From contig JAJTHZ010000069.1 in NCBI GenBank assembly GCA_021299185.1, forward strand, positions 1-49,890: DNA of 49,890 nucleotides. Direction: 5' to 3'. The notes beneath the pieces are model-generated. The model was not told where the DNA came from. It ran no database searches and worked only from the letters and a program-made list of their open reading frames with translations. The position numbers and the translations under genes are program-made. Source of the stretch: Lysobacteraceae bacterium. Lineage in GTDB: Bacteria; Pseudomonadota; Gammaproteobacteria; Xanthomonadales; Ahniellaceae. Shown one piece after another: positions 5,441 to 36,751 of this stretch (positions are counted from its first letter, which is position 1; every line of letters begins with the position of its first letter).

Positions 5441-6451
5441 CTAACCTTCGAAGCGCGACGCCGGCAGCCCCAGCCACTCGAGCGCGGTGCCGTGGAACAG
5501 GCGCGCGCGCTCGCCGTCCGGCAGCGCCAGGGCGTCGATCAGCGCCCCCGGCTGCTGCTCGCCGAGCGGGAACGGATAGTCGGTGCCGAACATCACCTGC
5601 GAGGCGCCGACGGTGTCGATGAGGTAGCGCAGCGCGCGCGGGTCGGCGACCCAGGAATCGAAGTACAGGCGCGACAGGTAGTCGCGCGGGTTGCGCGGGT
5701 TGTCGGTGGCCACCAGGTCCGGGCGCATGCGGAAGCCGTGCTCGATGCGGCCGATCGTGTACGGGAAGGACCCGCCACCGTGCGCGAGGCACACCCGCAG
5801 CCGCGGCAGCCGTTCCAGCACGCCGCCGAACACCAGGCAGCAGGCGGCGCGCGCCTGCTCGGCCGGCATGCCGACCAGCCACGGCAGCCAGTACTTGGGC
5901 ATCGACTCGCTGCCCATCATGTCCCAGGGGTGGACCAGGATCGCGGCACCGAGGTCTTCCGCCGCGGCGAAGAAGTCGAACAGCTCCGGCGCATCGAGGT
6001 TCCACTCGCCGATGTGCGAGCCGATCTGCACGCCGGCCAGCCCCAGCGACTCCACGCAGCGCGACATCTCCTCGATCGCCAGCCGCGGCGCCTGCAGCGG
6101 CACGGTGCCGATGCCGGCGAAGTGCGCCGGATGCGCGCGGCAGATCTCCGCCGTGTGCTCGTTGAGCGCGCGATGCAGTTCCAGCGCCTGGTGCGGCTTG
6201 GCCCAGTAGGAGAACATCACCGGCACCGTGGACACCACCTGCACGTCGACGCCGTGCGCGGCGTATTCGGCGATGCGCAGCGCCGGGTCCCAGGTGTTGG
6301 GGCCGATCTCGCGGAAGAACTTGCCGCCGCGGTAGATGCGATGCCGTCCTTCGGCGACGTGCATCACCGGGAAGCGGTCGTCGCCGTACTTGCTCGCGAG
6401 GTCGGGCCAGCGCGCGGGCAGGATGTGGGCATGCGTGTCGATCTTCAGCAC
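5441..6451 (-). CDS. nbaD: 2-amino-3-carboxymuconate-6-semialdehyde decarboxylase (ACMSD)
   Basis: A 336-residue amidohydrolase-family, zinc-dependent decarboxylase that converts 2-amino-3-carboxymuconate semialdehyde to 2-aminomuconate semialdehyde, diverting the 3-hydroxyanthranilate product away from quinolinate. Visible metal motifs are DTHAHILP (His7, His9), VHPWDMMG, LAHGGGSFPYT and MFGTDYPFP (metal Asp). The length matches bacterial ACMSD (about 335). The start is a GTG (VLKIDTHAH), because no ATG lies near the HxH motif and the open frame upstream is the neighbouring permease gene. It is the last gene of the 3HAO - permease - ACMSD string, 10 bp behind the permease. The nba symbol follows the Pseudomonas 2-nitrobenzoate/3-hydroxyanthranilate pathway. 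Confidence 0.9.
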   Translation of the reverse strand: MLKIDTHAHILPARWPDLASKYGDDRFPVMHVAEGRHRIYRGGKFFREIGPNTWDPALRIAEYAAHGVDVQVVSTVPVMFSYWAKPHQALELHRALNEHTAEICRAHPAHFAGIGTVPLQAPRLAIEEMSRCVESLGLAGVQIGSHIGEWNLDAPELFDFFAAAEDLGAAILVHPWDMMGSESMPKYWLPWLVGMPAEQARAACCLVFGGVLERLPRLRVCLAHGGGSFPYTIGRIEHGFRMRPDLVATDNPRNPRDYLSRLYFDSWVADPRALRYLIDTVGASQVMFGTDYPFPLGEQQPGALIDALALPDGERARLFHGTALEWLGLPASRFEG

Positions 6452-33336: not shown

Positions 33337-35916
<2,580 letters not shown>

Positions 35917-35918
35917 TC

Positions 35919-36186
35919 AGGGAACCTCTGGACAAGTATCCGCGTCCGCGCCGGAGGTTGTGCGGCCAGCCAGCAAGGCGCGCGTCGCAGGGCGTGGTGG
36001 TTCCACGCGCAAGACGCGCAATGCCGCTGGATGGCCGCACAATCCCGGCCCGCAGGGTTGCCTCTGTGCGCGCCCGCACCCGCGTTGGCCGCCTTGGCCG
36101 TGGAACCACCACGCCCTGCAGCGCCCGCCTTGGTGCGGACGCGCACAGAGGCAACGCGGATGCGGATGCTTGTTCAGAGGTTCCCT
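35919..36186. repeat. 268-bp element of nested inverted repeats (MITE/REP-like) between mutS and pncC
   Basis: The ends AGGGAACCTCTG (35919-35930) and CAGAGGTTCCCT (36175-36186) are exact reverse complements, and similarity continues inward for about 80 bases per side. The inner matches include GCAGGGCGTGGTGGTTCCACG near 35987-36007 against its complement near 36099-36120. A third exact pair, TTGCCTCTGTGCGCG (36058-36072) and CGCGCACAGAGGCAA (36140-36154), is nested inside. No transposase or credible gene is present. It begins three bases upstream of the mutS start codon and ends 55 bp before pncC. A clear target duplication is not visible. Confidence 0.8.
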
Positions 36187-36241
36187 AGACGGCGCGCGCT
36201 GTGTGGGCTAAAAGCGGAACTTTACCGGAGCGGCGACCGCC

Positions 36242-36751
36242 ATGCCCGATGCCCCAATGCCCGACGACGCCCGCCTGCACGACCTCGCCGCCGACGTCGG
36301 CGCGCGGCTGCAGGGCGCCGGGCAGATGCTGGTTACCGCCGAGTCCTGCACCGGTGGCTGGATCGCCAAGACCATCACCGACATCCCGGGCTGCTCCGCG
36401 TGGTTCGAGACCGGGATGGTGGCGTATTCCTACGAAGCGAAGCAGGCGCTGCTCGGCGTGCGGCCGGAGACCCTGCTCAAGCACGGCGCGGTCAGCGAGG
36501 AATGCGTGCTGGAGATGGTCTCCGGCGCGCTGATCCACGCCGGGGCCGGCGTGGCGGTGGCGGTGACCGGCATCGCGGGTCCCGGCGGCGGCACCGCCGA
36601 CAAGCCGGTCGGCACCGTGTGGATCGCGTGGAAGCGGCGCGGTGGCTACCCGCTGATGCGGCGTTTCCAGTTCGACGGCGACCGCGAGGCGGTGCGTCGG
36701 CACACGGTGGCCGCCGCGCTCGAGGGACTTCAGAAAATTCTTACGCCCTGA
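36242..36751 (+). CDS. pncC: nicotinamide-nucleotide amidohydrolase PncC (CinA C-terminal family)
   Basis: A 169-residue stand-alone CinA-C domain enzyme that deamidates NMN to NaMN, recycling pyridine nucleotides. Diagnostic motifs are [38 protein letters not shown] and [24 protein letters not shown]. The N-terminal molybdopterin-like domain of full CinA is absent, as in E. coli PncC (YgaD). Its place just upstream of recA is conserved in gammaproteobacteria. MPDAPM was taken as start; Met6 is an alternative. Confidence 0.95.

Follow-up and report, generated by a model that had tools for sequence, protein, structure and literature searches.

Bacterial MITEs are commonly held to be insertion sequences that have lost their inside, a view given in the available excerpt of the report on MITEPsy1 (PMC3189936). 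MITEPsy1 is an IS5-related MITE of 100 nt from Pseudomonas syringae pv. phaseolicola and was shown to transpose (PMC3189936, excerpt). It has 18-nt ends with letters similar to those of the element analyzed here, one of them GTATCCTCTGAAAAAGCC, and a 4-nt target duplication, CTAG or YTAA (same excerpt). By its ends and its target, as this excerpt presents them, MITEPsy1 is the closest known system. The IS5 family itself (NF033581 type) has the same terminal repeat as our element and the CTAG target, but our element differs from it in carrying no transposase and in having only the outermost ~16–18 bp in common.

The element lies in a 49,890-bp stretch of DNA, the whole of which we call the window, between mutS on the minus strand and the divergent pncC-recA-recX-alaS genes. 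The closest MutS sequences are those of Rhodanobacter, Rudaea and Lysobacter, which points to the order Lysobacterales. The 268-bp block that a preliminary description had placed at 35919-36186 is present, with 12 bp at either end that are perfect inverted copies of each other. Such ends alone are not significant, since the rest of the window has 21 further exact 12-bp inverted pairs spanning 100-400 bp (overlapping pairs counted apart). Exact inverted pairs of at least 14 bp with this span are found only in the block. The extended inverted similarity was borne out by pairs of 71 nt (76%), 45 nt (80%) and 24 nt (96%). The inner exact inverted pair was also there, at 21 bp (35987-36007 with 36099-36119) and not the 15 bp given before, and the distance to the mutS start, put at three bases, is two bases from the ATG (35916, minus strand) to 35919. 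Bounded by its IS-type ends, the element spans 35921-36184 (264 bp), four bases from the mutS ATG, with 4-bp flanks TCAG/CTAG. At 264 bp the element is too short for a transposase and has none; the open reading frames that overlap it are mechanical only. Its single-strand folding is far beyond that of shuffled sequences (z of -11.8 as RNA and -14.0 as DNA). The features of the locus are as follows.

33337-35916, minus strand: mutS, 859 aa, intact, with all five MutS domains and an in-frame TGA directly before the ATG
35917-35920, no strand: mutS-side 4-bp flank TCAG, a putative, decayed target duplication (relatives have YTAR duplications of IS5 type)
35921-36184, no strand: MITE core, 264 bp, Y-shaped, an outer stem with two hairpins in opposite directions
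35921-35936, plus strand: terminal inverted repeat GGAACCTCTGGACAAG; its minus-strand reading has AGAGG (35929-35925), 8 nt before the mutS ATG
35921-35948, no strand: outer stem, left arm; 25 of 28 pairs with the right arm are Watson-Crick and 3 are G.T on the plus strand
35949-36049, plus strand (sense on the plus strand): hairpin unit A, 95.3 bits to model R1, one of the 13 units from which R1 was built
36057-36157, minus strand (sense on the minus strand): hairpin unit B, 104.6 bits to model R1, also one of its 13 builders
36157-36184, no strand: outer stem, right arm
36169-36184, minus strand: terminal inverted repeat GGAACCTCTGAACAAG, with identical letters in IS-like copies of the same genome
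36185-36188, no strand: pncC-side 4-bp flank CTAG
36242-36751, plus strand: pncC (CinA domain), first of pncC-recA-recX-alaS

The element is almost certainly a non-autonomous MITE. This reading, already proposed from the letters of the window, is supported by other copies in the genome, by ends in common with IS5-family elements and by IS5-type target duplications around its relatives. The genome search recovered a multi-copy family, so this is no single-copy element: contigs C119 (89% over 264 bp) and C66 (87% over 268 bp) hold full copies, C14 a partial one (86% over 219 bp), and C135, C6 and others weaker ones. The element's ends, GGAACCTCTGRACAAG, match the ends of insertion sequences of the IS5 family within its own genome. 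A 17-bp end pattern, GGGAACCTCTGNACAAG, was found at 16 places in the genome with at most one mismatch, including the window's own two ends and several element copies or remnants, and at none with the reversed control. Some of these ends run into an open reading frame, MAQLTFGDAEFAGK, and others into a second, different sequence. The frame is visible for 57 aa and scored 29.6 bits against NF033581, below the cut-off. Its relative in another genome, G370, is a truncated IS5 transposase (NF033581, 263.9 bits), and it is from this match that we assign the frame to the IS5 family. The left end of the G370 transposase element reads CTAG followed by GGAACCTCTGAACAAG. A full-length insertion sequence was not assembled in the element's own genome, where fragments are found at contig ends only. 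A second IS-like sequence, with the same ends and a different interior (GTCGCCTGACAATCTACGG..), is present at five of these contig ends (L022, L030, L031, L039 and L040).

Among ten two-ended copies in G370, the flanks were CTAG/CTAG in seven and TTAA/TTAA in one, and imperfect in two (TTGA/TTAA and CGAG/CTAG). None of the three copies in the element's own genome has an exact duplication (TCAG/CTAG in the window, TTAA/TCAA at C119 and GTAG/CTGG at C66), so the insertion at mutS looks old, or its flank appears to have changed since. Three G370 elements (L139, L145 and L147) are bordered by the repeat CTAGTGTCCTGTCCCGG, which is similar to the end motif of the Y element at L238. Searching with the 268-bp sequence as a DNA query gave no match in plasmid and phage collections, matches in 2 of 10 genomes of the family, its own included, and in 4 of 398 genomes of the order (two candidates scored per genome). 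The other match in the family, G007, consists of one 85-bp end stretch and four short end matches.

Compared by eye with ~140 bp of the insertion sequence at contig ends, the element showed no resemblance beyond the terminal repeat. Its interior hairpins do not look like leftover insertion sequence and belong to a structured hairpin family of their own. The element folds into an outer stem and two ~100-nt hairpins, as RNA of the minus strand and as DNA of the plus strand. In the hairpin unit, of 101 positions, stems of ~24, 7 and 8 pairs follow one another, separated by two internal loops, and the last is closed by a 5-nt loop. Two further elements of the same genome, on C135, have the same plan and loop motifs and many different stem letters, and across genomes most stem pairs have been rewritten with pairing retained. 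In an alignment of 15 copies (A1), 20 of 96 pairs were changed on both sides, compared with 6.0 in shuffled alignments and 1-6 when partners were slid. Model R1, built from 13 units (A2), found 8 places in genome G312 versus one by DNA comparison. For model R2, from 20 hand-chosen units (A4), both sides were changed in 30 of 40 pairs (22.1 shuffled, 10-16 slid), with 158 double-change cells versus 52.2 shuffled and 89.5% of cells paired; all these covariation counts take in related sequences. No family of Rfam release 15 covers the window element, for which four miRNA matches (E 0.002-0.04) fell well short of their gathering scores, and none covers the 13 related loci that were compared with a limit of E 0.01. 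Some units end in GTT..AAC and others do not; an integron attC site was considered and set aside, as was an AAV-like terminal hairpin, which resembles the Y-shaped element in shape only. At locus L006, on C135, two Y elements (549-814 and 935-1196) lie inside what appears by eye to be a single slipin/SPFH coding frame, which both keep, fully open in the first and with a single TAG in the second. At the start of the contig (3-103) there is a third unit that has diverged further.

Model R2 found the unit well beyond the reach of DNA comparison. With E up to 1e-6, it matched 126 of 398 genomes in the order (40 of 98 genera) and 46 of 369 in the class, the gammaproteobacteria (36 of 272 genera), the element's own genome being in both counts and at most 10 candidates scored per genome; these E-values are rough, from short calibrations. 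Set against 4 of 398 genomes by DNA, these matches imply that DNA comparison strongly under-counts the family. None of the nine other family members had an R2 match, and G007, despite its DNA match, had none with R1 or R2. A weak R1 match in G002 (E 1.1e-6) was lost with R2 and stricter filters. The near-empty mutS loci (see below) and the inspection of matches by reading speak for the specificity of the models. We fetched 27 loci from the order, of which 24 lay away from contig ends. Of these, 22 gave an element of 263-279 bp, two with an outer pair of only 14 bp (L212 and L223), and the remaining two (L209 and L218) did not resolve. Together with seven loci of G312, they make 31 order loci, in which the loop motifs are retained only in part, with AAGGYG in the 5' internal loop in 11, CAAG-like letters opposite in all 31, and CAACG in 7. 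In the class, AAGGCG was found within the first 45 nt of all 13 analyzed loci out of 19 fetched.

The ends differ between loci, with GGAACCTCTG again in L230 and L233, and AGAGCCTGTTCAA, TAGAGCGTGTTATG, AGTGTCCTGTCCC-like and other ends elsewhere. In six G312 loci (L174, L180, L183, L186, L189 and L192) the second hairpin is of another type, with the core AGGCAAGGAAGAGCGAGG..AACTGAGCGATGACGCGG, and letters like these recur at several further loci of the order, among them L202, L214 and L220. Copying of the outer arms from the target flank, suspected at L180, was set aside, the G312 arms aligning with one another by eye. At the same locus (1471-1500), an arm apparently encodes the beginning of a sigma-70-family open reading frame, with its start codon and the residues that follow first.

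The wobble pairs of the units are polarized by strand. Read on each unit's own strand, G.T pairs outnumber A.C pairs by 77 to 11 in the element's own genome and G370 (30 units listed, 28 distinct, those with an indel not listed), by 42 to 4 in 27 B units of the order (55 to 12 in all 31) and by 16 to 5 in 12 units of the class, counts that ignore relatedness. For the order, 31 of 34 loci were examined, three lying near contig ends, and a mismatch limit left 27 rows for B, 24 for A and 22 for the outer stem. For the class, 13 of 19 loci were used (five near contig ends and one cut short), with 12 B rows kept and orientation set by the AAGGCG motif. The partner hairpin on the same strand shows the reverse, 8 G.T to 24 A.C (24 rows, order), from which it follows that on each strand the 5'-proximal hairpin is the one that tolerates wobble. 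There is no G.T excess in the outer stem, with 7 to 13 in the order, 20 to 21 in the class, and 9 to 25 in the own genome and G370, where two C135 rows are out of register. There is about an even chance that the G.T excess reflects selection on a folded single strand, be it RNA or single-stranded DNA. Strand-biased C-to-T mutation could contribute.

Pairing could also be kept without selection, by arm-to-arm template switching (quasi-palindrome correction), which would leave the interior a passive cargo. In several copies the outer stem runs for 30 pairs without a mismatch although its sequence differs from copy to copy, as such a process would have it, and the lack of a G.T excess in the outer stem fits it too. 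However, conversion between arms explains neither wobble pairs polarized in opposite strands of the two hairpins nor unpaired motifs, some of which recur across the class, and we regard this explanation as rather unlikely. We tentatively propose, at less than even confidence, a class-wide superfamily of Y-shaped mobile elements, the window element among them, that is defined by structure more than by sequence. Its members would have two opposed ~100-nt hairpins, the 5'-proximal one on either strand selected to fold single-stranded, as RNA or DNA, and varied IS-type ends on the same interior, so that the folded unit, not the parent insertion sequence, evolves. At start codons, the long folded leader would replace that of the gene, with the element's end as the ribosome site.

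The mutS gene would be a case in point. Its start is the ATG at 35916, since TGA precedes it in frame and the next in-frame ATG falls within the conserved HTPLM motif. The only ATG that retains the conserved MutS start thus lies 4 bp from the element, whose sequence makes up all but the last four of the 16 bases leading up to that ATG, TCCAGAGGTTCCCTGA. The sole Shine-Dalgarno-like motif seen, AGAGG, is the element's own end, 8 nt from the ATG, and when the flanks are joined without the element no such motif is seen by eye. The earlier claim that the block must carry or replace the ribosome-binding site is therefore supported by position, and the element probably supplies the mutS Shine-Dalgarno sequence. 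The same claim is not supported for the promoter: a scan of 35850-36300 found no sigma-70-like promoter, and a scan for terminators gave none either. AGAGG is a weak Shine-Dalgarno sequence, and none is obvious by eye in the tight mutS spacers of relatives, so that translation of mutS may do without one. Transcription of mutS would either read through from an old promoter on the pncC side or start inside the element, and translation would use the AGAGG in the terminal repeat. In a read-through mRNA the terminal repeats are expected to pair and hide AGAGG, with predicted unpaired probabilities of 0.00 compared with 0.09-0.73 per base for starts inside the element. MutS synthesis would then probably be lowered, or depend on where transcription starts. 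That the element actually reduces the level of MutS is a possibility that, on this folding model, we rate a little short of even. The tuning of mismatch repair suggested in the preliminary description is likewise a prediction.

In a stronger version, the element would act as a strong roadblock, leaving mutS almost silent and the strain a mutator as a result. The predicted hiding of the Shine-Dalgarno sequence in the read-through leader fits this, but mutS is intact with all its domains and thus seemingly still under selection, and the modeled silencing is improbable.

Other elements also lie close to genes. In 7 of 39 elements, a gene start supported by Pfam is within 15 nt of an element end: mutS (4 nt), a trpD-like transferase (overlapping by 1), a ddlB-like ligase (3), an aldo-keto reductase (0), a citrate-transporter-family gene (12), a cyclopropane-synthase-family gene (15) and a flagellar rod gene (15). 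The starts were taken by eye from mechanical open reading frames with no control set, and Pfam was applied to nine candidate genes besides mutS, chosen by eye, of which eight matched a family; a tendency of element ends to adjoin gene starts is thus suggestive only. Two other ends that abut starts (L200 and L224) have no Shine-Dalgarno-like letters by eye, and a "portable Shine-Dalgarno" may be confined to the type of end found at mutS and not be a general trait. The C119 copy (L002) lies, by eye, apparently between the end of a hicA-like and the start of a hicB-like gene.

A further candidate is a compound repeat of the REP, BIME or REPIN kind that owes its mobility to a RAYT tyrosine transposase. 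REPINs are inverted pairs of hairpins, as is our element, and single-strand polarity would suit an enzyme acting on single-stranded DNA hairpins. Yet the unit is a hairpin of ~100 nt and not a REP of 20-40 bp, so that the compound-REP half of the preliminary description is not supported, and the whole is a 264-bp element with IS5-type ends and duplications. Judged by size, ends and duplications, this origin is very improbable.

Comparison of the mutS 5' region among relatives shows that the element is an insertion at mutS and not a conserved mutS-pncC spacer, as far as the sequences of these genomes tell. The spacer is 325 bp with the element and 57 bp after removal of the element and one duplication. 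Four order relatives with the divergent pncC-mutS pair have element-free spacers of 89 (L044), 57 (L045), 88 (L051) and 50 bp (L057), with start codons chosen by eye. A fifth, L059, measured by the same rule, has 306 bp without a unit, and a long spacer alone is therefore not telling. Scanned with model R2, all 57 named mutS loci lacked the unit. A further set of 31 loci, 29 at mutS, gave one match (L120), downstream of mutS and not at its start: a single R2-matching hairpin (5600-5697, E 1.1e-7) just 3' of mutS in an Ectothiorhodospiraceae MAG. Within the family, mutS was recovered from six of nine other genomes, and the element is at none of them; the comparison is one between genera, the genus being represented by this genome alone. 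The position in the mutS 5' region and the strong folding would also fit an ordinary mutS-pncC spacer or an RNA that regulates mutS alone, in cis, but copies elsewhere in the genome and in the genome of another family, together with the empty mutS loci just described, leave this reading almost no probability.

Taken as a whole, we think it likely that an IS5-type MITE was inserted before the mutS ATG and that its Y-fold has been maintained. An IS5-family transposase acting in trans would have brought the MITE into the short promoter region between the divergent genes, and the folded single strand, RNA or DNA, would most likely matter for the element's own spread or persistence. If the polarity is due to selection on the folded strand, it would indicate that small mobile elements pass through a stage, as RNA or single-stranded DNA, that has gone unrecognized. 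The mutS locus also provides an actual example of a 5' leader, here that of the mismatch-repair gene, rewritten by a mobile element.

Literature on MITEs near mutS yielded no description of this element among the matches listed, at the level of titles and abstract openings. The same holds for the listed matches on IS5-type MITEs, on Xanthomonas or Lysobacter MITEs and on folded or palindromic elements, a literature in which subscription journals are mostly not included. The letters of the end motif led only to unrelated papers. MITEPsy1 differs from the element in its length of 100 nt, and the excerpt mentions neither a Y-shaped covarying interior nor a link to mutS (PMC3189936). QMITE1 and QMITE2 of Coxiella burnetii are likewise families of small MITEs whose transcripts fold strongly and in some cases give rise to small RNAs, but they are other elements in another lineage, and the excerpted report mentions no covariation test (PMC5896051). 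REPs and REPINs share palindromic units, many copies and inverted arrangements with our element. In the excerpts available, however, their units are of 20-40 bp with GTAG/CGTC tags, whereas the window element has ~100-nt units with internal loops (PMC3733652, PMC2817692). The folded interior recurs through much of the class, with compensatory changes in the stems, some conserved unpaired motifs and several unrelated-looking ends, in contrast to the common view, in the excerpt cited above, of MITEs as insertion sequences with a lost inside (PMC3189936). Thus, the kind of element, a MITE, is known, whereas an IS5-ended MITE built around a structurally conserved Y-shaped interior that is absent from Rfam 15 is new.
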